A stretch of DNA of 64,000 bases, from contig DATGHL010000053.1 in the NCBI GenBank assembly GCA_035308025.1, positions 62,001 through 126,000 on the forward strand, read 5' to 3'. Position numbers and translations under genes: made by a program. Position 1 is the first letter of the stretch, and every line of letters begins with the position of its first letter. Of the stretch, positions 9,754-54,291 are shown piece by piece. The notes under the pieces are model-generated. The model saw nothing but the letters and a program-made list of their open reading frames with translations, was not told the origin of the DNA and made no database searches. This DNA comes from Candidatus Binataceae bacterium (GTDB taxonomy: Bacteria > Desulfobacterota > Binatia > Binatales > Binataceae).

Positions 9754-11265
9754 CTAGGCCGCGTTTCTCACCCATTCGACGGTGTATTGGGTCTCAGGAT
9801 GTTTTTTTCGGATATCATTGAGAAAGCTGTTACGCTGTCGATGCCCTCCAGCGTGTCGCAATGTAGTAATGATTGCCCTGCGAATGTCGGGCTCGCTTTC
9901 CGCACTAGCCGCCTGCATCAAAAAGGACTGTTTGATCTTGTCGCTTCGCGCGAGAGCCCTCCATGCCGCAGCTCGGGTCGGCCAGCGTCTCGATTGATCG
10001 CTCGCGATTCGCTCGAACTCCTTGGCCTCGTCACCCCCAGTACGCACCTGTGACATTGCCATTAACATGTGGAATGTAAGCGCTTCGAAATGATCTTCGG
10101 GCGCCTGCGAAATTAATTTCATACATTCTTCGATTACGCGCTTGGTTGTCTTCGCAACCATCACGTAGGGACCCGCGATCTTGGGGTCGATGTTCATCAA
10201 GTCTCGCCGGCAAACCAGGTCGTAGCAACCATGCATATCGTTCCGGTTTTTCAAGTATTTCAATATCCACCGGTACTGGGATAGCTTGATCTCGGGCGAA
10301 TTCAAAATGTCTTGGTCAAATGCCCGCCTAACACCCCACACACTCAACTCCGGCGAATACGATGCTGCGCCTTCCCAGTACTGGATCTTGGAATCGCGCA
10401 GGTTTTCTCTGGCCTCTTCTGGGTCGTCGAAGAGCTTTGTCTTTTCTTCTGATCTCGTGAGACCCAACATGGGCAGCTCTTTATCTAGTAAAGTAACCAC
10501 AGCCTCACGCAGTGCTCTGGTCTTTGTGAAAATAAGGATATCGTCGCCATAGCGCTTATGATCTGCTCCGGACGCAATAATCGACTGATCCACGGGGGCG
10601 AGAAAAAGGTTACCTAATACGGCTGAAGCCTCCGGACCGATTGGCAAGCCGCGCAGTCCGGTTTGGTCTCGCCAGAATTCTAGGGTTCGCAGAAGTCGCC
10701 GAACAATTTTGTGGTTACAGCGACACCGCAACAGAAGGTCTTCCAGCAGATCAAAACGAATAGATGGATAAAACTTCGTTACATCTGTTCTGCACATAAA
10801 CGGGCGAGTGTCGTCGTCAAGGACACTTATTCCCGCTTCCGTGAAGGCCCTCCAGGCCTCTTTGCTCGATCGAAATGTCCAAGCGCTCGCGGCGTCACCA
10901 AAGGAAGAAATACGGTAAGAATAGACGCGATCCGAAATTGTTGGATCCGTGACTCGCGCGAGGCGGCCTCCATCAACACGCAACAGGGCGAGGTCCGCTA
11001 CACTGGCCACCGCCATCACGCGCAGTTTGTTTGGATACTGTGGATGATAATTCGGATACGGAAATAACGTCAGTGTGTTCGGCGTGTATTCCCTTGAAGA
11101 TGCCCGCTTCGCCAACTGGGACGCGAAGGACTGGGCAAACATCTTATAATCTTCAAAATGGATGACATCAGGAATTTCAAAGAAACCCGAATTGTGAGCT
11201 GCCACTGCTTCAATGTTTCTGTGTAATTGTTCTATGTTGAATGTACAATACCTCCGCCTCTCCAC
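9754..11265 (-). CDS. Stand-alone reverse transcriptase (defence-associated/unknown-group type)
   Basis: A 503-residue protein with a complete polymerase core: motif A TDVTKFYPSI (Asp 161), motif B GLPIGPEASAVLGNLF (206-221), motif C RYGDDILIF with catalytic YGDD at 239-242, preceded by the SDRVYSYR block near 111-118. Residues from about 290 to 503 are a helical C-terminal extension resembling HEAT-type repeats. The start is GTG at 11265; an in-frame stop at 11293-11295 prevents extension. It lacks the group II intron maturase/endonuclease region, retron features and a DGR-type motif B, so by motif form it fits the Abi/unknown-group (DRT) RTs. Base composition is visibly less GC-rich than the flanks, which suggests transfer. 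It is the only gene between the transglutaminase and nrdJ genes, and structured untranslated sequence lies upstream on its strand. Confidence 0.85.
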   Translation of the reverse strand: MERRRYCTFNIEQLHRNIEAVAAHNSGFFEIPDVIHFEDYKMFAQSFASQLAKRASSREYTPNTLTLFPYPNYHPQYPNKLRVMAVASVADLALLRVDGGRLARVTDPTISDRVYSYRISSFGDAASAWTFRSSKEAWRAFTEAGISVLDDDTRPFMCRTDVTKFYPSIRFDLLEDLLLRCRCNHKIVRRLLRTLEFWRDQTGLRGLPIGPEASAVLGNLFLAPVDQSIIASGADHKRYGDDILIFTKTRALREAVVTLLDKELPMLGLTRSEEKTKLFDDPEEARENLRDSKIQYWEGAASYSPELSVWGVRRAFDQDILNSPEIKLSQYRWILKYLKNRNDMHGCYDLVCRRDLMNIDPKIAGPYVMVAKTTKRVIEECMKLISQAPEDHFEALTFHMLMAMSQVRTGGDEAKEFERIASDQSRRWPTRAAAWRALARSDKIKQSFLMQAASAESEPDIRRAIITTLRHAGGHRQRNSFLNDIRKKHPETQYTVEWVRNAA

Positions 11266-19423: not shown

Positions 19424-21010
19424 TTAACTGCAGCCCGGAAACTTCAGGGTGGCGAGGCGGGTGTGCCAGTCGGAGCCCTTGGTAGCAAGGTACTCATTGG
19501 CGTACCAGAAAGTGCAGTCGTCGATCGGATCTACGGCCATGCTGGTGTAGTCACCCCAGCGATTGATGGTCTGTGAAGCTGAGCCCAACTTTATCGCGGC
19601 GATCGCCTCCATCGTGTTGATCGGATCAGTCGGAATGCGCCCGGTGTAGAGGATGCTCGGATGAACGCTGCTGCTCGAGGCGCTGAAACCGAGAGCGATG
19701 TCGCCCGCTTTATCCATCGCGAGCGAGCCCATCCAGAGCGAGATAGCGCCGACCGTGAAAGTTCCCTGCTGCGCGATCGCCGGGGCAGAATCCGGATTGA
19801 TGATGTCGTACCATCGCACCGCCGCCACCGCCTTACTCGGCTTAACCGCGTGATTGACCACCAGATGTTCTGTGCCGCCAAGATTGCGCCATGCCAGCCG
19901 GTGCATCAGGCGGTCACCTAGCGAGTCGAGTTTCTGGCTGATACCCGGTTGCGGGATACAGGTGCCGGTTGAGGCGCAGGCCTGGGTGTACGGGGCAATG
20001 CTGATCATCGTGGGTCCGGTGAAAGTGGCATTGGCCGGAGTCGCGAAGTCCGAGTGAAAGTCGAAGAGTTCGAGCGTATTGGGGCTGCTGCCCAGCTCGA
20101 CAAAGAAGTCCGGCTCGTTGGTTGCGGGCGGCGTGGCGCCGTCGACGTCCGATGGCAGGAAAGAGAAGTCACTCGTGGTCCGCTGGAAGCATTCGGTATT
20201 TGACGGGCCGCCAGCAAGCATCGACGCGCGATCAAGCGCACAGACCTTTGCCCCAAGAAAGGTAACTCCGCCGGAGAAGATGTTGAAGGAGGCGTAGTAA
20301 GCGTCAGACCAGACGCCGAATTTGGGATAGTCGGGCAGGCTCGATCCGAACGAAACTTCGTAGCGGTTATAGGTCAAGGTTGCATCCGAGCCGGTTGAGA
20401 CCGCCACGCATTCGGAATTGGATGTAAATGAACTGTTGTAGGCCAGGATGGTTACCAGCCAGCGGCTCGCCGCCTTATCATAGAGCACCACCGGATCGCT
20501 GTAGTTCGAGGTCGTCTTGCCGCAAAGCGTGCCGGCGAAGCCAGACCAAATGCTGCTGACCGCCGCCGGGCCGAGGATCGATGCACCGCTGCTTTTGTTG
20601 AAGATCTGATACGAAACGTTGGTGGTCTCGACGACTTGCGTGCTGCCCACCGAGGCGTTGGTGTCCGGCGGTACGAAGCCGCTGATATTGCTCACCCCGT
20701 CGAAATTCAGACCGACCGTGGCAGCGACAAGTGGGCCGCCCGAGCGTTGGATCACGGGGTCAGTCTCGCTAGCGACGGCAGGGGCAGCGCCTGAGCGACG
20801 CCGCACCGGCAGGACTTCGTGCGTGCCGCTGCTGACGGAGCTCTCGGCGGCAATAGCGATATCACTCAAGGGCGCTGAAATATCGTGGTTGACCTCGCCG
20901 ACAAAGGTCGCGCCGACCTGAACTTCCTGAGCGCCGGTCGTAGTAGGACAAACCATCGCAGTAAGTCCCACCGACGCGCCCAGCGCTAGCATTGTTATTG
21001 TTTTAGTCAT
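19424..21010 (-). CDS. Large secreted protein, function unknown
   Basis: A 528-residue exported protein. It starts MTKTITMLALGASVGLTAMV followed by a signal cleavage region (TTTGAQEV). The mature part is beta-rich, with GFVPPDTNASVGSTQVVETT near 110-130, SDPVVLYDKAASRWLVTI near 165-185, and a C-terminal INRWGDYTSMAVDPIDDCTF block. The pattern DPVVxYDxxAxRW is common in secreted proteins of soil bacteria that are predicted to form a propeller-like fold; no activity is known. An AT-rich 150-base region upstream likely holds its promoter, including TTGACA on the minus strand. Confidence 0.75.
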   Translation of the reverse strand: MTKTITMLALGASVGLTAMVCPTTTGAQEVQVGATFVGEVNHDISAPLSDIAIAAESSVSSGTHEVLPVRRRSGAAPAVASETDPVIQRSGGPLVAATVGLNFDGVSNISGFVPPDTNASVGSTQVVETTNVSYQIFNKSSGASILGPAAVSSIWSGFAGTLCGKTTSNYSDPVVLYDKAASRWLVTILAYNSSFTSNSECVAVSTGSDATLTYNRYEVSFGSSLPDYPKFGVWSDAYYASFNIFSGGVTFLGAKVCALDRASMLAGGPSNTECFQRTTSDFSFLPSDVDGATPPATNEPDFFVELGSSPNTLELFDFHSDFATPANATFTGPTMISIAPYTQACASTGTCIPQPGISQKLDSLGDRLMHRLAWRNLGGTEHLVVNHAVKPSKAVAAVRWYDIINPDSAPAIAQQGTFTVGAISLWMGSLAMDKAGDIALGFSASSSSVHPSILYTGRIPTDPINTMEAIAAIKLGSASQTINRWGDYTSMAVDPIDDCTFWYANEYLATKGSDWHTRLATLKFPGCS

Positions 21011-25709: not shown

Positions 25710-26528
25710 CTAAGCGGCCTTTTCGGTCTTCTCCGTTTTCTCTGTCTTTTTGACCAGCGCAACCGGCGGTGTTGGCGATCCTCCGGTCAAGGTTTGACGC
25801 AGCGCCAGTCCCTTTTGCCCGGCCAGGATACCTTTGAAGGCCGTAATCACTATGCGATCGAGTTCCTTCTCGGTTTGCGCACGGGCGCGGATTTTTTTGG
25901 AGAACGGGTAGGCGAGGATGTTGGCTGTGCCCACGCCGTAGAGGGTCGCAACAAACGCGGTGGCGATGCCGGAGCCGATTTTGCTCGGATCATCGAGCAT
26001 GGACATCGTATGAATCAGACCGAGCACCGCGCCCATGATGCCGAAGGTCGGCAGGTAGCCGCCCGCCGCATCGAAAACGTCAGCGCCGGCGCTGTTGAGC
26101 CGGAAGTTCTCGGCAAACCGCCGCTCGAGCACGCCGAGCAATGATTCCGGCGCCATATTGCTCACAAGCAGGTTCAGCGCGGTGCTCAACAGGGGATAAC
26201 TTTCCTTTGAGATTTGCTTCTGAAGCGCGATCGGACCTTCTTTGCTCAGGACAGTGCTGTAACCGACGATGCGGTCGATCAGCTCGAACGGATCAGGCAC
26301 CGTCGAGGCAACGACCTTTTTCACGTCGCGAGCCGCCGCCATCAGGGAGGAAGGGGCAAAGGAGAGCATGCAAGCGCCAAGGCTGGCGCCCACAACGATC
26401 ATCGCGGCGCTCAACTGTACCAATGAGCCGAGCGCGCCACCTTCGATCCATTGCCCGCCAAGCACGCAGGCCGGGCCAAGCAACAGCCCGACGATGCTGG
26501 CGAAATCGAGTTGCGTTTTCGTCCCCAC
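25710..26528 (-). CDS. motA: Flagellar stator protein MotA
   Basis: A 272-residue MotA/TolQ/ExbB-type membrane protein. It has four hydrophobic segments: two near residues 10-55 and two near 155-210 (GYLPTFGIMGAVLGLIHTM and TAFVATLYGVGTANILAYPF), with a cytoplasmic loop between that carries charged residues. MotA with MotB forms the proton-driven stator. It begins at GTG 26528. Normally motB follows motA; here motB is 26 kb away and truncated. The KKTEKTEKTEKAA C-terminus is unusual low-complexity sequence. About 227 bases separate it from fliG. Confidence 0.9.
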   Translation of the reverse strand: MGTKTQLDFASIVGLLLGPACVLGGQWIEGGALGSLVQLSAAMIVVGASLGACMLSFAPSSLMAAARDVKKVVASTVPDPFELIDRIVGYSTVLSKEGPIALQKQISKESYPLLSTALNLLVSNMAPESLLGVLERRFAENFRLNSAGADVFDAAGGYLPTFGIMGAVLGLIHTMSMLDDPSKIGSGIATAFVATLYGVGTANILAYPFSKKIRARAQTEKELDRIVITAFKGILAGQKGLALRQTLTGGSPTPPVALVKKTEKTEKTEKAA

Positions 26529-26755: not shown

Positions 26756-27739
26756 TCAAGCGACCATCTCCTGCTCATCGGCACGGAGGCGAACCTTGCC
26801 GTCGCGATTCATATTCAGGGCGAGCGTGCTGATTTCGCGGCGGGCAGCGCGGACCTCGGTGGCGGCAACACTCCCGCTGTCGTCGAGTCCCTGCGTCACC
26901 ATCTGCTTCACCTGATCGGTGAGCCCGCTGAAGATGAGGTCGCGCTGCTCAGGCGCCATCCCCTTAAGCGCGATGGTCAGCTTTTCGGTCGGGACTTCGC
27001 CGAGGATGCGTTCGAGCACGCGGACTTCGAGCTTGAGCAGGTCTTCGAAGTGGAACATCTCGCGCTCGAGCGCCGCGGCGCAGGCCGGCTCGGTGGCGCG
27101 CAACTGCTCGACGATCGCGAGGGCGGCCTCACTGTCGAGCCGATTCAGCATCGTGGCGGCGGCTTTGACTCCGGCCTGCTGATCGCCGGCGCCGGCGCCG
27201 ACCCCACTATTGAGGCTTTCCTCAAGTGCGGCCGCGAGCGCGTCGGCCGCGGCGGCGGCGATAGAGCCGCTGCGGGTCAACCGCTCGATACTTTTGGCGC
27301 GGGATTCCTCAGGCAGCAGAGCGAAGAGGTCCGACGAATAGGCCGAGGGCAGCTTCGCCAGCACAATCCCGATGGTCTCGGAGCGCTCGTCCTTGAGCAG
27401 GGCTGCCAGCGTCGCGGGCGTCACTCGTTTGGCCAGCGCGTGCCACGGATCCTGACGCAAAATCTGCGATGCGCCCTCCTCGCCGACGGCGAGCACGAGC
27501 GCTTCCTTGAAGTGTCCGCCGGCGCCGCCTGCGGCCAATTCGAGAAACTCGCGGCCGACGCCGATCAGGCTCGTCTCGTCAGGCTTGCCCGCGGCCTCCT
27601 GCTCGTAAGCCTGGGTCAGGTTGGCCAACTCGACTTCATTCAGATGCTTGAGAACCTTGGCCAGGACATCCTTGTTCAGCGTCATCGCGAACAGCGCGGC
27701 CTTGTTCGACCGGGCAGAAGACTCACTTTGCAGCGCCAT
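26756..27739 (-). CDS. fliG: Flagellar motor switch protein FliG
   Basis: A 327-residue FliG, the rotor protein that contacts FliF and the stator. N-terminal helices (NKAALFAMTLNKDVLAKVLK), a middle EHPQ-like region (PWHALAKRVTPATLAALLKD), and a C-terminal armadillo/charged domain (FHFEDLLKLEVRVLERILGE, MAPEQRDLIFSGL) appear in order. Length is normal. It lies after flgL rather than between fliF and fliH, its usual place, so the locus has been rearranged. Confidence 0.9.
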   Translation of the reverse strand: MALQSESSARSNKAALFAMTLNKDVLAKVLKHLNEVELANLTQAYEQEAAGKPDETSLIGVGREFLELAAGGAGGHFKEALVLAVGEEGASQILRQDPWHALAKRVTPATLAALLKDERSETIGIVLAKLPSAYSSDLFALLPEESRAKSIERLTRSGSIAAAAADALAAALEESLNSGVGAGAGDQQAGVKAAATMLNRLDSEAALAIVEQLRATEPACAAALEREMFHFEDLLKLEVRVLERILGEVPTEKLTIALKGMAPEQRDLIFSGLTDQVKQMVTQGLDDSGSVAATEVRAARREISTLALNMNRDGKVRLRADEQEMVA

Positions 27740-45518: not shown

Positions 45519-46808
45519 TCAGACGATCGCGTCGCCGAGTTGGCGCACGCTGTCGTCAAAGCTGACCTGCTGATGGAGGCCCTGTTGCAGAAACGCTTCC
45601 AGTTTCGCGTGCAGTGTCACCGCCTCGTCGAGCCGACGATCGGCCCCCGGATGGTAACTGCCGAAGGCGATCAGCTCCTCGGCCTCACGCCAGCGCGCGT
45701 AAAGCTCGACGAAACGGCGGCGGGCCGCGCGATGGTCTGGAGCCGTGACGCGCTGGGCCACGCGCGAGATCGAGTTCTGAACATCGATCGCGGGATAATG
45801 GCCCTTGCCGGCGAGTTCGCGACTGAGTGTGATATGGCCGTCGAGCACGGATTTGGCCAGCTCGCCGACCGGGTCGTTTTCCTCGTGCAGCAGCACCGTA
45901 TAGATTCCGGTGATCGCGCCGCCGCCGGCGTCCACACCGGCCTGCTCGACCAGGCGCGGGATAACCGCGAAGACCGAAGGCGGATAGCCGCTCGCGGTCG
46001 GCGGCTCGCCGGCGGCGAGCCCAATTTCGCGCTGCGCCATCGCGACCCGTGTGAGACTGTCCATCAGCAGCAGCACGTTGCGGCCTTGGCCGCGCAGATA
46101 GCTCGCGATCGTGGTTGCCAAAAAGGCGCCGCGGATTCTGAGCGGCGCCGGCGCGTCGCCCGGCATCACGATCACGACGGAGCGCGCGAGGCCTTCGGCT
46201 TCGAGGATGTCCTCGATAAATTCACGCGCTTCGCGGCCGCGCTCGCCGATCAACGCGATTACGTTGACGTCGGCCGCGGCGCCGCGCGCCATCATGCCCA
46301 TCAGGACGCTTTTGCCGACCCCGGGCATCGCAAAGACCCCAATCTTCTGCCCGATCCCGAGCGTCAGCAGACCATCTATCGCGCGCACGCCGACCCCTAG
46401 CGGAGACGCGGTCAGTCCGCGCGCCAACGGCGCAATCGGCGCCGGTTCGAGTTCGATCGGCTCGCCGGCCGCCGGCGCCGGCTTGCCGTCCAGCGGCCGG
46501 CCCATCCCGTCGAGCACGCGCCCGAGCAGCCAGGGACCAGCCTTGAAGGTGAGATGGCAGGGCGCAACCAGACTGCCGGCGGCGAGCTGGCGGGCGTCCT
46601 CGATCGCCAACAACAGTAGGCGATCGTCGTGGAAGCCGACGACCTCGCAGAGCACGCGGGTCGCGCGGTCGCGCACCGCAACCATCGCGCCCACCGGCAG
46701 GTCCGGCCCGGTCGCTTCGAGCAGCAGGCCCACCGAGCGGGTCAGCCGGCCGCAGGCCGGCGCGGCGATTGCGGGCAGCGCCGCGAGATAGTCGGCAAGA
46801 TCGATCAT
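45519..46808 (-). CDS. fliI: Flagellum-specific ATPase FliI
   Basis: A 429-residue export ATPase, related to the F1 beta subunit. Walker A is FAMPGVGKSVLMGMM near residues 157-172, Walker B is in NVLLLMDSLTRVAMAQREIG, and IGLAAGEPPTASGYPPSVFA follows, all standard. FliI hydrolyses ATP to unload export chaperones. It lies directly after fliH, separated by 31 bases. Confidence 0.94.
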   Translation of the reverse strand: MIDLADYLAALPAIAAPACGRLTRSVGLLLEATGPDLPVGAMVAVRDRATRVLCEVVGFHDDRLLLLAIEDARQLAAGSLVAPCHLTFKAGPWLLGRVLDGMGRPLDGKPAPAAGEPIELEPAPIAPLARGLTASPLGVGVRAIDGLLTLGIGQKIGVFAMPGVGKSVLMGMMARGAAADVNVIALIGERGREAREFIEDILEAEGLARSVVIVMPGDAPAPLRIRGAFLATTIASYLRGQGRNVLLLMDSLTRVAMAQREIGLAAGEPPTASGYPPSVFAVIPRLVEQAGVDAGGGAITGIYTVLLHEENDPVGELAKSVLDGHITLSRELAGKGHYPAIDVQNSISRVAQRVTAPDHRAARRRFVELYARWREAEELIAFGSYHPGADRRLDEAVTLHAKLEAFLQQGLHQQVSFDDSVRQLGDAIV

Positions 46809-46839: not shown

Positions 46840-47481
46840 TCATGTCCGCCGCGCGCGCGTACGGCGCGCCCGCGTCGCGAAGACTGCGAGGCGAATCTGT
46901 TCGAGCGCGTCGGCGAGCGTGTTCTCGACCAACAGACGGCCGGCGTCGACGCGGACCCCGCCGGCGGCGATCGCCGCGTCGGTGCGCAACGTCAAACCCT
47001 CGAGTGCAGCTTCGGCGGCCGCCACGTCAGCGGGATTCAACACCACCTCGAGCGGCCGCTGCGGCGCGAGCGTCTGGATTCCCGCGCGGATCGCACGCTT
47101 GACGAAATCGGCGCGGACCTCGTCGATTTCGACGAGACGCGCCGCGGCCGCGAGCGCGAGTTCGACCGCAAAGCTCTCGGCCTCGACGAGCGTGGCCGCG
47201 CGCGCATCCGCGCATTCCGCGAGAGCCGCGCGAAGCGCGCCAGCCGCACTCTCGAGTTCAGCCAGCCCGGCGCGGCGACCCTCTTCCAGCGCCTGCGCGT
47301 GCGCGACCGCCGCGGCCTGCGTGAGCTCCGCGAGCGCGGCCTGCTGCCCGAGCCGCAGACCCTCCTGATAGCCGCGCGCGAGCGCGGCGGCGGCTGCCGG
47401 GTCTTGCTCCGCGGAACGCTCCGGCCCGCCGCTAAGTTCGTTACGGGCGGGAAAGGCGTAGCTGCGCGAGGGCGGCGTCAT
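46840..47481 (-). CDS. fliH: Flagellar assembly protein FliH
   Basis: A 213-residue protein starting at ATG 47481 (MTPPSRSYAFPARNELSG), which overlaps the stop of the fliF remnant (TGATG). It has an Ala/Glu-rich coiled coil (EGLRLGQQAALAELTQAAAV) and a C-terminal domain (FVKRAIRAGIQTLAPQRPLE) as expected for FliH, the FliI regulator. The frame upstream of 47481 (to 47535) lies inside fliF and is not used. Confidence 0.85.
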   Translation of the reverse strand: MTPPSRSYAFPARNELSGGPERSAEQDPAAAAALARGYQEGLRLGQQAALAELTQAAAVAHAQALEEGRRAGLAELESAAGALRAALAECADARAATLVEAESFAVELALAAAARLVEIDEVRADFVKRAIRAGIQTLAPQRPLEVVLNPADVAAAEAALEGLTLRTDAAIAAGGVRVDAGRLLVENTLADALEQIRLAVFATRARRTRARRT

Positions 47482-47700
47482 CAGTGCACGTAACCGTTGC
47501 GTTCGCCGGCCGCGCCCTCGGCGGCTTCGAGCCACTTCCGCAGGATCGCGGCGGCGGCCTGCGGATCGCGGCTGGCCTCTTCGTTGAGCTTGGCGCGGAG
47601 TTCGTCATATTCCGAGCGCGGCGCTTCCAGCGGCGCAGTGTCGCCGGGCGGCGCAGCAGGCGCTGATAATGTTGCAGTCGCCTCGGCGGTCGTCCCGGCG
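47481..47700 (-). pseudogene. fliF: 3' remnant of fliF (MS-ring protein)
   Basis: Read on the minus strand, the frame that ends at 47481 encodes SEYDELRAKLNEEASRDPQA then AAAILRKWLEAAEG, the typical cytoplasmic C-terminus of FliF that binds FliG. It overlaps fliH by one base, the normal arrangement. The frame upstream changes to low-complexity Ala/Thr-rich sequence and, by about 47717, overlaps a transposase fragment on the other strand; a stop follows at 47802-47804. Both membrane segments and the ring domains, about 500 residues, are missing from this locus. The exact junction (47660-47717) cannot be fixed by eye. Confidence 0.75.
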
Positions 47701-47716: not shown

Positions 47717-47914
47717 CCGCGGCGGCTGGCGCTGCCCGCGCCGATCGGGAAGTGGTCGCTGACCAGCTTGCAGCAGCGGTTGGTGAAGACCGGCGGACGG
47801 CTCATCCAACATGCGCGCTACTATTGGTTGCTGTTGGCGGAGAGCCATCTGACGCGGCGGTTGTTTGCCGGCATGCTGCGAAAGATCACGATGCTGCCGT
47901 CGCCAGCGGGATAG
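47717..47914 (+). pseudogene. Transposase C-terminal fragment (IS1380/IS4-like DDE family)
   Basis: A plus-strand frame ending in TAG at 47912-47914 reads ALPAPIGKWSLTSLQQRLVK, then GRLIQHARYYWLLLAESHLT, then RRLFAGMLRKI. This is the conserved C-terminal tail of DDE transposases of the IS1380/IS4 type. A stop at 47714-47716 and the fliF remnant replace the rest, so about 85 percent of the gene is lost. It marks the left edge of the foreign island. Family assignment is from memory of the tail pattern. Confidence 0.7.
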
Positions 47915-48292: not shown

Positions 48293-49141
48293 ATGGCGAC
48301 ACTATTGAACACCTCGGAAGTAGCCGGCATTGCGCAGACGCGCTCCACTGCGGCCGGCCGGGCTAACAGTCACTGGATTAGTCCCACGTTTATGATGATT
48401 GTCTGCGGGATCGTCGGGATGCTGATGATCGCCGCCAGGATATACCAACAGGTTTACGCCTGGAGCGCGGGCCTGGACGCCACCTCCCCGGAGTTCCAGA
48501 CGTATTGGATGAACCTGCTTTTCGGCCAGTTCGCGGTCGAGGCGCTCGCCGCCGCAGCCATCTGGGGCTACGTCTGGGTCAGCCGTCCCAAGGATTTTGC
48601 TCGGGTGGATTCGCGCGAAGAGCTCAGACGGTTCGGCGTGTTCGTTGCCCTGATATTCTGTTACGTCTTCGCGGTATTTTGGGCGGGGAGTTTCTTTGGT
48701 GAGGAGGACGCGAGCTGGCATCAAACCGTCATTCGCGACACTTCATTTACACCCAGCCACATCATCCTCTTTTACTGGGCCTTTCCCATCTACATTATTC
48801 TGGGAATCACCGCCTACCTCTACGGGATGACGCGGGTCCCGCGCTTCGCCGCCCGGCATTCGCTGCCTTGGCTTATCGGCGTGTCGGGACCATTCATGCT
48901 GCTGCCCGTAGTCGGATTCAACGAATGGGCTCACAGCTTCTGGATTCTCGAGGAACGGTTCTCAGCTCCCGTACACTGGGGGTTCATGATCTTTGCGTGG
49001 GCTGGACTGGGCCTCGGAGGGCTCCTGCTCCAGGGCTGCGACTATATCCACGAGTTGACCACCGGCGAGGCGCAGACTTACGTCGGCACCAACGGGCCGG
49101 CCGCCGACCCCGCCCTCGAATTCGAGCGCGAGGTGATGTGA
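48293..49141 (+). CDS. Copper membrane monooxygenase subunit C (PmoC/AmoC-like)
   Basis: A 282-residue membrane protein with about six hydrophobic segments. The copper-site residues of particulate methane monooxygenase PmoC are conserved with exact spacing: Asp139, His143 (+4) and His156 (+13), in FFGEEDASWHQ and SFTPSHIILFYW, matching Asp156/His160/His173 of the Methylococcus enzyme. The protein is the first gene of a C-A-B operon. CuMMOs oxidise methane, ammonia or short hydrocarbons; substrate cannot be decided from this alone. Confidence 0.93.
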   Translation: MATLLNTSEVAGIAQTRSTAAGRANSHWISPTFMMIVCGIVGMLMIAARIYQQVYAWSAGLDATSPEFQTYWMNLLFGQFAVEALAAAAIWGYVWVSRPKDFARVDSREELRRFGVFVALIFCYVFAVFWAGSFFGEEDASWHQTVIRDTSFTPSHIILFYWAFPIYIILGITAYLYGMTRVPRFAARHSLPWLIGVSGPFMLLPVVGFNEWAHSFWILEERFSAPVHWGFMIFAWAGLGLGGLLLQGCDYIHELTTGEAQTYVGTNGPAADPALEFEREVM

Positions 49142-49241
49142 TCAACGCGCGCGGCGGACGGGACTTTCGCCGGCTCTCTGAGCGCGGAACGGGCCCTGCT
49201 CGGCGCGATTTGAGCGGCGCAACCACCCCGAAAGGATCCTG

Positions 49242-50006
49242 ATGGCAGCGCATCCGCGAGCCCGTTCGCAACCGGCAGTAGCGACTCCCGAGGAGGCTCG
49301 GCGGGTCTATCGTTGGTTTGATCTGGTGATCGCCGTCCTGCTGCTCTTCCTTTTCATGGGAATCTATCATGTCACAACCATCCTCACGGTAGGCGACTGG
49401 GATTTCTGGGACGATTGGAAGGATACTCGCTGGTGGCTCTCATTCACTCCGATCGTCCTGATCGCGATGCCGTCCGCGACTACCTACATCTTCTGGTCGA
49501 AGTTTCGGCTGCCCTTCGCGGCGACCTTTCTCACCCTCTGCCTGGTTTATGCCGAATGGATCAATCGCTTCTTCAACATGCACGGATGGGCCTATTTCCC
49601 GCTGAATTTCATCTGGCCTTCGACCCTGATCCCATGTGGAATCGCGCTGGATACCACGCTGGTTCTTACCGAGAGCTACCTCCTCACGGGCATCATCGGC
49701 GGCTCCCTCTGGGCGGTACTGTTCTACCTCGCCAATTGGCCCTTGATAGCGCGCTTCCTGCTCCCGGTTAACGTAGATGGCGTGCTGATGTCCTTAGCTG
49801 ACCTGCAGGGTTTTCACTATGTCAGAACCGGCACGCCCGAATATATTCGGATAATCAACCGGGGAACCCTGCGTACCTTCGGACAGGATCCCATATACCT
49901 GTCGATCGCCTTTGCGGCTGTTATGTCTATAATCGTCTACATGGTTTTCCTCTCCGTCGGCCGGATTTTCACCAGAAGTCAGTTTGCATGGCTTAAGAAA
50001 ATTTAA
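49242..50006 (+). CDS. Copper membrane monooxygenase subunit A (PmoA/AmoA-like)
   Basis: A 254-residue membrane protein. The signature TVGDWDFWDDWKDTRWWLS is the classical PmoA/AmoA block, followed by AMPSATTYIFWSKFRLPFAA, INRFFNMHGWAYFPLNFIWP and the GIIGGSLWAVLFYLANWPL helix. Six or seven hydrophobic segments are evident. A GAAAGGA site precedes the ATG. Phylogeny of this subunit would tell methane, ammonia and hydrocarbon types apart. Confidence 0.94.
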   Translation: MAAHPRARSQPAVATPEEARRVYRWFDLVIAVLLLFLFMGIYHVTTILTVGDWDFWDDWKDTRWWLSFTPIVLIAMPSATTYIFWSKFRLPFAATFLTLCLVYAEWINRFFNMHGWAYFPLNFIWPSTLIPCGIALDTTLVLTESYLLTGIIGGSLWAVLFYLANWPLIARFLLPVNVDGVLMSLADLQGFHYVRTGTPEYIRIINRGTLRTFGQDPIYLSIAFAAVMSIIVYMVFLSVGRIFTRSQFAWLKKI

Positions 50007-50086
50007 ACGGGTAGCTACAAGCTGGCTGGCGACACGGCGAGATAGTGACGCGGCAATTGTGCGGACTGGCGATATGAGCGCGCTCG

Positions 50087-51352
50087 ATGGATAAGCGGAA
50101 AGATCTCGCGAAGCGCAACGCAACGCTGCTGGCCGCGACTATTGTCGGCGTGCTGCTGGCGTTCGGCACCAATGCCCTCGCGCATGGAGAACGCGCCCAG
50201 GAACCTTCGCTGCGATTGTCGACCATACAATGGTACGACACCAGGTGGTCGGCTGATCACGTTAATGTAAACCAGGATCTTACGGTCTCCGGCCGGTTTC
50301 ACGTGATGGCGAGTTGGCCGCTCGAAATCCCGAAGCCGGATCGGCTGACGTTCCTTAATGTCGGCATCCCTGGGCCGGTATTCATCAGGACCTCGAGCTT
50401 CATCGATGGCGTCAACGGCGTGGCGTCGATGCCGCTCGAGCTTGGCAAAGACTACCAGTACAAGTTCACTCTGCGCGGCCGGATTCCGGGCCGCTATCAC
50501 GTTCATCCGATGCTGGATGTCCAGGATGCGGGCGCGATAATCGGACCGGGCAATTGGGTTACCGTCGCGGGTGACGCAAGTGCGTTTAAAGACCCTGTCA
50601 CTACGCTCACCGGCCTCAAGCTCGACCTCTCCCGCTATGGTCTTGCGGCGGTCGTGAGATGGCACCTGGTCTGGGTAGTGCTCGCCCTCGCGTGGCTCGG
50701 TTATTGGCTGCGGAAACCTCTCCTGATGCCGCGCTACGAGGCCGTCCAAGCCGGCGAAGGAGACCATCTGATAACGCGAAAAGATCGCATCGCGGCCGCC
50801 ATCGTTCTCGCCACCACTCTGGTAGTGGCGATCGCGGGCTTCGCGATCACCAATATGGAATACCCCGTAACCATCCCTCTCCAGTCCAACCAGACTAAGG
50901 TTCCCGCTTTGGACGATTCGCCCGCCAGCATCTCGATCACACCGGAGCAGGTGACTTACCTGGTGCCTGGGCGCTCGGTCCAGTTTCGGCTCCGCATCGC
51001 CAACCACGGCGCGAAACCCGTCAGGATCGGCGAATTCACGACCGCCAACCTGCGCTTTCTTGATAGCGCCGTCGAAAGGCCGGAAACGGGCTATCCGGAG
51101 GATTTGATCGCGCCGGCCGGCCTGCTCGTGCGGCCCGACGAGCCAATAGCCCCGGGACAAACCATGCAGGTGGACATCGAAGCGACCAGTTCGGTCTGGG
51201 AGACCGACCGCCTTACTGCGCTCGTGAGCGATCCGACCAGCCGCATCGGGGGCCTGTTCATGTTTTTCAGTCCGGACGGTGAGCGCTCGATGGTCGAGTT
51301 CAGCAGCGCAATCATTCCGACTTTTACGGAACGTGTTCGCGACGGTGAATGA
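50087..51352 (+). CDS. Copper membrane monooxygenase subunit B (PmoB/AmoB-like)
   Basis: A 421-residue protein with a signal peptide ending NALA, so the mature N-terminus would be His33 (HGERAQEPS), as in PmoB. The other Cu-B ligands are His138 and His140 in RYHVHPML. Two cupredoxin-like periplasmic domains flank two membrane helices (WHLVWVVLALAWLGYWL and IVLATTLVVAIAGFAIT). All three copper ligands are intact, so the enzyme is probably functional. Confidence 0.94.
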   Translation: MDKRKDLAKRNATLLAATIVGVLLAFGTNALAHGERAQEPSLRLSTIQWYDTRWSADHVNVNQDLTVSGRFHVMASWPLEIPKPDRLTFLNVGIPGPVFIRTSSFIDGVNGVASMPLELGKDYQYKFTLRGRIPGRYHVHPMLDVQDAGAIIGPGNWVTVAGDASAFKDPVTTLTGLKLDLSRYGLAAVVRWHLVWVVLALAWLGYWLRKPLLMPRYEAVQAGEGDHLITRKDRIAAAIVLATTLVVAIAGFAITNMEYPVTIPLQSNQTKVPALDDSPASISITPEQVTYLVPGRSVQFRLRIANHGAKPVRIGEFTTANLRFLDSAVERPETGYPEDLIAPAGLLVRPDEPIAPGQTMQVDIEATSSVWETDRLTALVSDPTSRIGGLFMFFSPDGERSMVEFSSAIIPTFTERVRDGE

Positions 51353-51992
51353 TGCGACGCGTATCGGCGAGGCACGGTTCCGATCTGGGCGCCGCCGGCC
51401 AAGCCCGGCTGAGATCTTGCGCTTCCTGACTCTGCTGGCAGTCTTTGCCATCTGCCTCGCGCCGCGCCCGTCTTGGGCGCACGGCGGCGGACCCGGTTTG
51501 GACTATGACCCCTGCGTTCGCCGAGCCGGCTTGGACTACCTTGTTCACTTTGCGGCCTACCAGCCCCGATTCAATCAGTTCGAGGAATACTGTGGCAGCC
51601 TGCCGCGCGGCGGCCAGACCCTCCTGGTTTTCGACTTGCTCGGCGCGGAATTGCCCAATATTCCGGTGTCGATCGAGATTGAAGGGGGCGCGCACCGACT
51701 CTCGATACCCGCACGGCTTTATCGCTCAGGCGTGGTTGATGTGCAGGCCGAACTCGAACCCGGCAATTACACCGCTTTCGTCACGATAGGTGAACCGCCG
51801 GATACTCACCGCCTTGCATTCCCATTTTCTGTCGGCGTCTGGTGGAACCGGCTGGTGGGGCCGATGCTGCTCGGATTGCTTATCCTCTTGGCTGCCGCTG
51901 CTTACTGTATGTATCAACTGAGACTTGGCATGCTGGAAAGTCGCCAGTCCACGTCGAGCACGATAGTTGGCTTGTCCCGCACCAGCGCGTGA
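51345..51992 (+). CDS. PmoD-like accessory protein
   Basis: A 215-residue protein that overlaps the end of the B-subunit gene by 8 bases (GTG at 51345). It has a signal-type hydrophobic segment (ILRFLTLLAVFAICLAPRPS), a periplasmic domain with two Cys (DYDPCVRRAGLDY, FEEYCGSLPRGGQTLLVFD), and a C-terminal membrane helix (LVGPMLLGLLILLAAAAYCM). CuMMO operons often carry such a fourth protein (PmoD class), implicated in copper handling. Homology here is by layout, not a strong motif. Confidence 0.65.
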   Translation: MNDATRIGEARFRSGRRRPSPAEILRFLTLLAVFAICLAPRPSWAHGGGPGLDYDPCVRRAGLDYLVHFAAYQPRFNQFEEYCGSLPRGGQTLLVFDLLGAELPNIPVSIEIEGGAHRLSIPARLYRSGVVDVQAELEPGNYTAFVTIGEPPDTHRLAFPFSVGVWWNRLVGPMLLGLLILLAAAAYCMYQLRLGMLESRQSTSSTIVGLSRTSA

Positions 51993-52196
51993 ACCATGCA
52001 ATCCCACCGAGCCTTCGCGCAAGCCCGCGCTCGGCGGCGGCCGTTTCCGCGTCCTCTGGGAGGCCGAGAGCCTGACCACGTAATTTACCGTGCTTAGTCA
52101 CGAGGCGATTTAGAGCTGGCCGGGAGAATTTGGACAGCGGGATAATTGGAGTTTCTGCCTGCCGGCGGCCAAGATGGCAGCCGAACAGGAGAGAAC

Positions 52197-52469
52197 ATGA
52201 GCAGACGGCCGCGCCGGAACCACACCCCGGCATTCAAGGCGAAGGTGGCACTGGCTGCCGTCAGGGGCGAGCGGACGCTGGCGGAATTGGCGCAGCAATT
52301 TGACCTCCATCCCAATCAGGTCACCCAATGGAAGGCGCAACTGCTGGAAGGGGCGGCCGGCGTGTTCGGGTCCGCGGCTGGTAGTGGGCCCGCCACCCCC
52401 GCGATTGATCTGAAGTCGCTGCACGCGAAGATCGGCGAACTGACGCTGGAGAATGATTTTTTGGGGTAA
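52197..52469 (+). pseudogene. Truncated IS3-family transposase OrfA
   Basis: The ATG at 52197, with AGGAGAG upstream, opens a 90-residue frame with the IS3 OrfA helix-turn-helix: HTPAFKAKVALAAVRGERTL then AELAQQFDLHPNQVTQWKAQ and, near the end, LHAKIGELTLENDF, which normally continues into the OrfB frameshift window. The frame stops just after ENDF, where the sequence joins motB. OrfB (the DDE catalytic part) is absent, so the element is dead. Confidence 0.85.
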
Positions 52470-52470
52470 A

Positions 52471-52971
52471 GCCGTCGATCTCGAGCGGATTCGGCTTGCC
52501 GCTGAGCTCTTTCGCAACCGCGGCCAGCACGGGAAGCTGCACCGGGTTGATCTCAGCGTCGCCGCTGGCGAAGAACCGGGCGGCTGAGAGTGAGATCACC
52601 AGCCCGCGGTTATCGAGCCTGACGGAGACCCCCGAATCCTGAAAAGTCAGCAGCGCCGTGCTCAGATTATCGCCCAGATTGGCCAGTCCCTTGCGCGACG
52701 TCTCGGCCATCATACGGCGCGTCATCTCCGTCATCGCCGAGCCCGACGCCCGCGCCGCTTCGCCGAGCTCGGGCCGCGTGCCGCCCCGATGAGGCCGCAC
52801 GCCAACTCCAGTCGCCGCCGCCGTCCACGCCCGATTGACCTGATCGCTCGACTGCATCGACATCGCATACATCAGGACGAAGAGCGCAAACAGCAACGTG
52901 ATGAAATCGGCGTAGGAGACCAGCCAGCGTTCGCTCGAATCATGTCCGCCGCCGCCTTCTTCATGTTCCAT
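52471..52971 (-). pseudogene. motB: Truncated flagellar stator gene motB
   Basis: The N-terminal 167 residues of MotB are intact: a cytoplasmic start, the single membrane helix with the proton-binding Asp22 in LVSYADFITLLFALFVLM, a plug/linker region, and the start of the OmpA-like domain (SLSAARFFASGDAEINPVQL then ELSGKPNPLEIDG). At that point, where H-T-D of the peptidoglycan-binding motif should follow, the sequence changes to IS3 DNA; the frame runs on antisense to 52321. Without the OmpA domain the stator cannot anchor. It is far from motA. Confidence 0.88.
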
Positions 52972-53007: not shown

Positions 53008-54291
53008 TCATTCGCGCAACAACGGCCCGGGGCTGGACGGAATCAGCGCGGCGGCCGCGCCGAGCCGCGGCGCGCGGCGGCGGGAGAGTCCGGCCTTGGT
53101 GATATGGTACTGCAGCGCGCGGGTCGTGATCCCGAGCTGGCGCGCAGCCGCCGCGCGATTACCGCCCGCCGCGGCGATCGTGCGCAGGATCATTTCGCGG
53201 CGCGCCTCCTCGCGGCTGGTTTTCCAGCCGGTCGTCGGGGCCGCCTCCGCAGCCGCCGCCACGCTCAGGTGCTGGCGGATTTCCGCCACATCGACCAGGT
53301 TTTGTCCGGCGCTAATCGGCGCGATCGCGACCCGCGAGACCAGGCTCTCGAGTTCCAGCACATTGCCGGGAAAAGCGTAGGCGCCCAGCGCCTTGAGCGC
53401 CGCCGGCGTGAAACTGCGACGCGGATTCGCGCGCCGGATAAAGTACCGCGCCAGCAGCGCGATATCGCCGACGCGTTGGCGCAGCGGCGGCGCTTCAAGC
53501 GCAAAGACGTTAAGCCGCCAGTAGAGCTCGCGGCGGAAATCGCCGCGTTCGACCAGGGTCCCCAGCGCACGGTTGGTCGCAGCGATAAACCGCACCGGCG
53601 GCGCTGTCGCCAGCGGCGCGGCTGACCAGAACTGCTGATCGCCCGCCTGCAACATGCGTAAGAGCTTGAGCTGCGCGCCGTCGCTCAGCTCGCCGAGTTC
53701 GTCGAGGAAGAGCATTGCCGCCGCTGGCCCGGCCAACGGCCCCGGCGCCTGGCGCGCAATCGCACCCATCAGCGCGTGCTCGTCAAGTTCGTCAAAGCGC
53801 GCGCAGTTGAGCGTCAACAACGGCCCGCGGCTGCGGCTCGCCTGATGGCACAACCGCGCCAGATTGTATTTACCCGTGCCGATTTCACCGCTCAAGATTA
53901 CCGGCACCGGACTGGCCGCGACGCCCAGCACGCTGCGCACCGCCGCCAGCATCACTGGATCCGCGGTCAGCAGTGCGGGCCGCAGCCGCAGCGCCGCCGA
54001 GACGATCAGGCAAGCCCCCGCCTGCCAGTCCGCGATCGCCAGATCAGCGTCCGCGCGTCCGCCACCCGCGCGCGGCTCCAGATCGAGGCTCAGGAGCTCG
54101 ACCCCCGGCGGCCGCGCGCCGACGAAATCGACGTATAGGGCAGCGGCATGACGCTGAGTGAAGGGCAGGACCTCTATTCCGGCGCTCGCGACAAACTCCG
54201 CCAATTCAGCCGGCGCGCCCGGTCCGAGTGCGACCCGCGGCCAAGGCTCCGCGGCGGCGCGGTTGGAGAGGCCGTACGGCGCAGGCGCCAT
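53008..54291 (-). CDS. AAA+ flagellar transcription regulator lacking the GAFTGA loop
   Basis: A 427-residue protein with an N-terminal region of no known fold, an AAA+ ATPase core and a C-terminal Fis-type helix-turn-helix (AAAGGNRAAAARQLGITTRA near 390). Walker A is GEIGTGKYNLAR (135-146), Walker B LFLDELGEL (194-202), and the sensor region RFIAATNRALGTLVERGDFR is present. The sigma-54-contacting GAFTGA motif, expected around 175-190, is replaced by LMGAIARQAPGPL. It therefore resembles FlrC/FleQ-type flagellar regulators but may not activate sigma-54. It starts at the last base of fliN. Confidence 0.8.
   Translation of the reverse strand: MAPAPYGLSNRAAAEPWPRVALGPGAPAELAEFVASAGIEVLPFTQRHAAALYVDFVGARPPGVELLSLDLEPRAGGGRADADLAIADWQAGACLIVSAALRLRPALLTADPVMLAAVRSVLGVAASPVPVILSGEIGTGKYNLARLCHQASRSRGPLLTLNCARFDELDEHALMGAIARQAPGPLAGPAAAMLFLDELGELSDGAQLKLLRMLQAGDQQFWSAAPLATAPPVRFIAATNRALGTLVERGDFRRELYWRLNVFALEAPPLRQRVGDIALLARYFIRRANPRRSFTPAALKALGAYAFPGNVLELESLVSRVAIAPISAGQNLVDVAEIRQHLSVAAAAEAAPTTGWKTSREEARREMILRTIAAAGGNRAAAARQLGITTRALQYHITKAGLSRRRAPRLGAAAALIPSSPGPLLRE

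Follow-up and report, generated by a model that had tools for sequence, protein, structure and literature searches.

In the window, a 64,000-nucleotide stretch (G000:C53:62001-126000) of a 3.63-Mb draft metagenome-assembled genome (MAG) of Candidatus Binataceae that is 96.8% complete, we identified an operon that appears to encode a functional copper membrane monooxygenase (CuMMO), consisting of PmoC, PmoA and PmoB together with a PmoD-like copper protein; this activity is predicted from the sequence. With its closest relatives it forms a lineage of its own among CuMMOs, and it stands where related genomes carry flagellar genes. For the substrate we favour short-chain alkanes over methane, giving alkanes about an even chance.

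Copper sites and integrity of the operon

PmoC, PmoA and PmoB are each encoded by an uninterrupted open reading frame (ORF) in the order C-A-B, and Pfam matches (Table 1) place homologous A, B and C subunits side by side, the hallmark of the CuMMO superfamily. All three subunits have their best Protein Data Bank (PDB) match in chains of the particulate methane monooxygenase (pMMO) of Methylococcus capsulatus Bath (PDB 1yew, 3rgb), with which they also share the CuB, CuC and CuD ligands. In our own alignment the positions that a preliminary description had given for the CuC ligands of PmoC and the CuB ligands of PmoB proved right, and PmoC also keeps the CuD ligands, which that description did not list. 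Across a 51-row CuMMO alignment that includes ammonia monooxygenase (AMO), pMMO, Pxm and hydrocarbon monooxygenase (HMO), the ligands are identical in every row with letters at these sites: 51/51 for CuB, 44/44 for CuC (seven rows have no letters) and 45/45 for CuD (six rows). Because they are invariant across AMO, pMMO, Pxm and HMO, they indicate an intact enzyme and say nothing of its substrate.

The bis-His (CuA) site of PmoB is different. Its ligands in Bath are reported to be His48, His72 and Gln404 (PMC12576850), whereas position 48 in the window is Gln, a residue shared by 24 of the 51 rows, the window included; His occurs in six. The statement that all known copper ligands are kept was therefore slightly too strong, as it holds for CuB, CuC and CuD and fails at position 48. 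The accompanying view that a working enzyme is likely agrees with the intact, conserved ORFs and the invariant ligands. The pN/pS ratios of pmoC, pmoA and pmoB against their two closest relatives are 0.17-0.28, with synonymous sites near saturation, which makes the full dN/dS unusable.

OrfD has no Pfam or NCBIfam match. It has an N-terminal helix, a beta domain and a C-terminal helix, and a profile built from 16 of its relatives matches the PmoD of Methylocystis Rockwell (PDB 6cpd) at E 6.3e-32; its predicted structure (mean pLDDT 85.5) has the same entry as its best structural match (E about 1e-8). Homology, predicted fold and two invariant cysteines identify OrfD as a member of the PmoD/AmoD family. 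It does not, however, carry the motif of a CuA-forming PmoD. Fisher et al. give the CuA motif as Cx7MxHxnC, with the Met necessary for the CuA site (PMC6189053), whereas in our own alignment OrfD reads Cx10H...C and the Met is absent.

Placement among copper membrane monooxygenases

We refer to the window's operon lineage as type 1 (PmoA identity to the window of 63% or more) and to the other CuMMO copy in Binatia, with a PmoA 38-40% identical to that of the window, as the second type. A PmoA match was found in 29 of the 148 class genomes, and five of the 29 carry type 1 (G006, G014, G019, G055 and the window genome, G000); a second CuMMO copy at 38-40% identity is present in all five. Among the best 80 of 286 matches, the closest PmoA relatives come from two Candidatus Binataceae MAGs (JASHZA010000227, 82%; JAMXLL010000344, Bin.006_Pasture, 78%), followed by Centralia_MAG_33 (65%) and then a Myxococcota MAG (53%); it is through these nearest named records that the window genome is assigned, with probability, to the Binataceae. 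With the named relatives confined to these 80, verrucomicrobial, archaeal and other more distant CuMMOs lie outside the trees. Bin.006_Pasture, the source of type-1 locus L024, is reported to hold pmoA, B and C (PMC9455692). In another type-1 relative, L159 (G055:C27), pmoB is split over two ORFs and no pmoC was recognized alongside by eye; this locus looks decayed or misassembled.

For the PmoA tree, 13 loci were removed by name as duplicates or second copies and two (L057 and L060) were restored, trimmed to PmoA, giving 93 rows including Bath, from which the removal of 22 near-identical rows left 71. In it, type 1 is represented by four rows, which group at 100/100 and adjoin the Myxococcota and Deltaproteobacteria rows (96/82); AMO, Pxm, HMO, Cycloclasticus and the second Binatia type all fall elsewhere. 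A tree of all three subunits (CAB), made from 51 hand-chosen rows and rooted on the second Binatia type and HMO, again recovers type 1 at 100/100, here alone beside 37 other proteobacterial-type rows (88/93, not starred). In approximately unbiased (AU) tests, with groups named after viewing the first tree, a joint clade of type 1 with Myxococcota/Deltaproteobacteria had p-AU 0.117.

On the trees and the gene order we set aside membership in four families. Both trees leave the window out of the AMO clade, which has 100/100 support. Pxm is a separate clade in both and has the order A-B-C, which we take to be typical of that family and also saw in the collected loci, as opposed to C-A-B here. In the CAB tree a 100/99 branch separates actinobacterial/SAR324-type HMO from type 1. 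Finally, Cycloclasticus pHMO is separate in both trees, and its joint clade with type 1 had p-AU 0.030. Identities over CAB are 39.5-46.5% to the six pMMO rows; 38.9-39.9% to bacterial AMO (PDB 9pxf, 9cl6, 9leg), despite homologous subunits, shared ligands and the same CAB order; and 32.0-33.2% to the actinobacterial HMOs of Mycolicibacterium chubuense NBB4 and Rhodococcus WAY2 plasmids, which likewise share order and ligands. As neither tree puts the window inside a characterized clade, we did not find the placement within a single substrate clade excluding alkanes that would have told against the preliminary description, and its judgement that the substrate is open stands.

Three of the collected loci are unusual in themselves. 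L060 (5662-7713), from a Bradyrhizobium MAG, has a single 684-aa ORF containing both PmoA and PmoB, and L061, from another Chersky-series MAG, has an ORF of equal length that is not identical. L057, the CuMMO of an Alicyclobacillaceae (Bacillota) MAG, sits on a long branch, with its best pmoC match several kilobases away.

CuMMOs in Binatota have already been published. Murphy et al. (2021; PMC8262859) reported them in 11 genomes, divided between a tropical upland soil cluster (TUSC) clade and an Actinobacteria/SAR324 clade; shared with our loci are the class, the CAB order, the existence of two kinds, the presence of two copies in two genomes and, in some of the genomes, pmoD. The second type probably matches their Actinobacteria/SAR324 clade, and type 1 may be their TUSC group. 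Methane, alkanes or ammonia have been suggested for pmo genes in Binatia (PMC9938248, PMC11264602, PMC9999580, PMC9455692), in reports that give gene content and sponge transcripts without measured activity.

Metabolic setting and substrate

What else the genome encodes is more in keeping with small alkanes than with methane or ammonia. At its second CuMMO locus, pmoCAB is followed by genes for a zinc-dependent alcohol dehydrogenase (Zn-ADH), a small subunit, a GMC oxidoreductase and SCO1. The small subunit is a Gluconate_2-dh3 match below the Pfam cut-off, with a twin-arginine (TAT)-like start read by eye, and a glyoxalase-family gene lies upstream of the operon, beyond a helicase on the opposite strand. 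All four downstream genes are kept at the second CuMMO locus of G001, a genome of the same genus, while the second-type locus of G014 has Zn-ADH and SCO1 and no GMC. A relative of the GMC gene (71-74% identical) adjoins the CuMMO of a Myxococcota MAG whose PmoA is one of the two neighbours of type 1 in the PmoA tree. This dehydrogenase context lends moderate support to small organic substrates of more than one carbon, with methane as the less likely alternative. Beside these loci, we note that a relative's second-type operon (L126:6767-11377) has PmoD-like genes on both sides.

The pyrroloquinoline quinone (PQQ)-dependent alcohol dehydrogenase family TIGR03075, searched in 26 genomes, among them all type-1 genomes but G055, was over the cut-off in 13 and had no match in G000, in G001 or in the 53% complete type-1 genome G006. 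PqqB and the HAO-type cytochrome family PF13447 also had no match in G000, which accordingly shows neither the PQQ-type methanol dehydrogenase of canonical pMMO hosts nor the HAO of bacterial AMO hosts. MCH, of the tetrahydromethanopterin (H4MPT) pathway, had no match in any of 12 genomes, and its absence does not discriminate because it is missing from PQQ-dehydrogenase carriers too. We set aside methane oxidation through an NDMA-type methanol dehydrogenase, for which the query finds just a 26% relative.

We propose that the window enzyme, acting in the membrane, would hydroxylate small hydrocarbons, with C2-C4 alkanes as the probable substrates, and that the product alcohols would pass to Zn-ADH/GMC-type alcohol dehydrogenases such as those encoded at the second locus, and on toward acyl-CoA. 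The preliminary description had noted, as no more than suggestive, that genes for an acyl-CoA dehydrogenase, short-chain dehydrogenases/reductases (SDRs) and a LuxE-like protein in the window fit alkane or fatty-acid metabolism. At a distance of at least 25 kb, across the flagellar cluster, these are too remote to say much, and the same conclusion is better supported elsewhere in the genome, by the second CuMMO locus and the missing matches to PQQ alcohol dehydrogenase, HAO and PqqB.

Several points weigh against the alkane reading. The dehydrogenases adjoin the second CuMMO, not the window operon, and the join of type 1 with Myxococcota in the PmoA tree is not recovered in the CAB tree. The missing PQQ-related matches are imperfect markers, since PqqB occurs in G001, which lacks a TIGR03075 match, and G033 has many PQQ dehydrogenases but no PqqB. 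The near-complete type-1 genomes G014 and G019 do have PQQ alcohol dehydrogenases, which suits methane, and the AU test does not reject a joint clade of type 1 and canonical pMMO (p-AU 0.056), although the trees place type 1 outside the pMMO clade. Of 30 columns that tell our AMO and pMMO sets apart, the window agrees with pMMO at 17 and with AMO at two, and has a different letter at 11; this counts as weak evidence, given the narrow AMO set and the wider spread of the pMMO set. These resemblances to pMMO would be expected if the enzyme were the methane monooxygenase of a TUSC (cluster 2) soil methanotroph that lives at low methane concentration and handles methanol with an unrecognized dehydrogenase. 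Murphy et al. placed two Binatales PmoA in TUSC and favoured methane (PMC8262859), and type 1 may, by exclusion, be that group. Yet the window genome matches neither PQQ alcohol dehydrogenase nor PqqB, and according to Knief TUSC could encode a non-methane hydrocarbon monooxygenase (PMC4678205). We regard methane as a somewhat unlikely substrate.

Ammonia, which has been proposed for Binataceae pmoABC (PMC9938248), would require an AMO-like enzyme that gives hydroxylamine to neighbouring organisms in a metabolic handoff. PmoA and PmoB do score above the NCBIfam AmoA_BACT and AmoB_BACT cut-offs, with PmoC just below AmoC_BACT, and a joint clade with AMO is borderline (p-AU 0.051). PmoB also passes the general CH4_NH3 model, however, and a Methylomagnum plasmid copy among the Pxm rows is annotated amoA, so amo names carry little weight. 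Together with the position outside the AMO clade in both trees, the scarcity of AMO letters at the separating columns and the lack of an HAO-type family match in the genome, this makes ammonia very unlikely.

The gene context of the second locus suggests a different comparison. In Methylacidiphilum, pmoCAB3 and pmoD are clustered with a glyoxalase and a pair of GMC oxidoreductase genes, and this cluster is reported to serve acetone oxidation, with 2-propanol upstream (PMC8630023). The GMC gene, small subunit and upstream glyoxalase-family gene at the second CuMMO locus of the window genome recall this arrangement. By analogy with Methylacidiphilum PMO3 and acetone, the window enzyme could have a ketone or some other small molecule as its substrate. 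The likeness is drawn from gene context, and the genes concerned belong to the second locus; the window operon at 48-52 kb has no GMC neighbour. Among the collected loci, many of them too short to tell, the glyoxalase-family gene was seen in G000 and G001 only and GMC in those two and L026 only; neither is present in L121 and L126, the second-type loci of 20 kb in G014 and G033. We therefore consider a ketone or similar substrate quite unlikely, and short-chain alkanes remain our preferred reading.

In the literature, Binatia CuMMOs figure as potential methane sinks, alkane degraders and ammonia oxidizers. The pairing of type 1 with a second CuMMO in all five genomes, here in a host without matches to PQQ-type methanol dehydrogenase or HAO, opens the assumption of methane to testing and is a reason not to equate soil pmoA too readily with methanotrophy.

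Flagellar setting and other features of the window

In G001 and G014, with gene names assigned by similarity, the flagellar cluster runs fliI-fliH-fliF-...-fliG-...-motB-motA-regulator. The window keeps the end of fliF and the first two thirds of motB, and between them, in place of the fliF-to-motB stretch, lie the pmo operon and two transposase fragments (Table 1). This synteny suggests that a rearrangement associated with insertion sequences (IS) removed fliF to motB and put the operon in its present place. The left fragment has a single related place in the genome, on contig C23 (82% over about 255 bases); the right one, which we take to be an IS3-type orfA, has none, and no full element could be delimited. 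GC3 is 0.69-0.77 in the pmo genes, lower than the 0.82-0.83 of five flagellar genes; this agrees with a foreign origin without proving one. In G019 and G006 the type-1 operon is flanked by different genes, so its place is not fixed.

Across six genomes searched, the FliF family is present in G001 and G014 and has no match anywhere in the window genome or in G005, G006 and G019. Its loss is thus not special to the window genome and may precede the exchange.

Transposase fragments at both borders are places where assemblers fail, and the type-1 operon of G055 looks broken; the flagellar junctions could accordingly be an assembly error at repeats, or the operon could be decaying. However, both flanks come from one flagellar cluster, with order and orientation as in two relatives, FliF is unmatched genome-wide and not only at this locus, and the ORFs are intact and conserved, so that a dead or misassembled locus is highly improbable. 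There is also a small chance that the two CuMMOs work in series on C3 compounds, a scheme already put forward for Methylacidiphilum: the window enzyme would convert propane to 2-propanol, the GMC enzyme would yield acetone and the second CuMMO acetol, the alkane enzyme having been gained at the flagellum's cost by IS-mediated exchange.

As far as literature searches tell, the flagellar setting and the dehydrogenase context are new here. Among open-licence PMC papers, searches on CuMMO evolution and on links to flagellar or GMC genes returned no title or abstract that describes this setting, and in the main text of the Binatota study (PMC8262859) the stem flagell occurs once, in a figure legend. 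If a monooxygenase operon did take the place of a flagellar segment, the case would clearly illustrate how metabolic gain can be coupled to motility loss.

Table 1. Genes of the operon, its surroundings and related loci (window coordinates unless stated otherwise)
Feature	Position	Strand	Remarks
pmoC	48293..49141	+	282 aa; CuC D139/H143/H156, CuD N210/H214/H228; Pfam AmoC E 1.1e-86
pmoA	49242..50006	+	254 aa; Pfam AMO E 4.1e-89
pmoB	50087..51352	+	421 aa; CuB H33/H138/H140, bis-His site Q48/H72; Monooxygenase_B E 2.6e-143
orfD (pmoD/amoD homologue)	51345..51992	+	predicted GTG start overlapping pmoB stop
fliI	45519-46808		left flank
fliH	46840..47535	-	left flank
fliF remnant	47496..47612	-	matches residues 516-554 of 564-aa FliF of G014
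DDE_Tnp_1_4 transposase, C-terminal fragment	47741..47911	+	left border; E 1.1e-6, below Pfam cut-off score
HTH_Tnp_1 transposase ORF	52146..52469	+	right border; runs into motB
motB, truncated	52321..52971	-	52465-52968 matches residues 8-166 of 249-aa MotB of G001; rest of ORF without match
Regulator-like flagellar-cluster gene	53008..54291	-	right flank; 57% identical to gene at same place in G001
motA	25710..26528	-	apart from motB in window genome
fliG	26756..27739	-	apart from interrupted cluster
acyl-CoA dehydrogenase	1.6-2.8 kb		window gene
SDRs	2.9-4.5 kb		window genes
LuxE-like	21.7-22.9 kb		window gene
Second CuMMO operon	G000:C8, L119:7337-17228		pmoCAB, then Zn-ADH, small subunit, GMC oxidoreductase, SCO1

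Elsewhere in the window, a 528-aa ORF without a Pfam match lies at 19424-21010 (-). A reverse transcriptase ORF at 9754-11265 (-), with a low GC3 of 0.56, has RT_UG23 as its best PADLOC match (4.1e-52) and is a candidate anti-phage reverse transcriptase.

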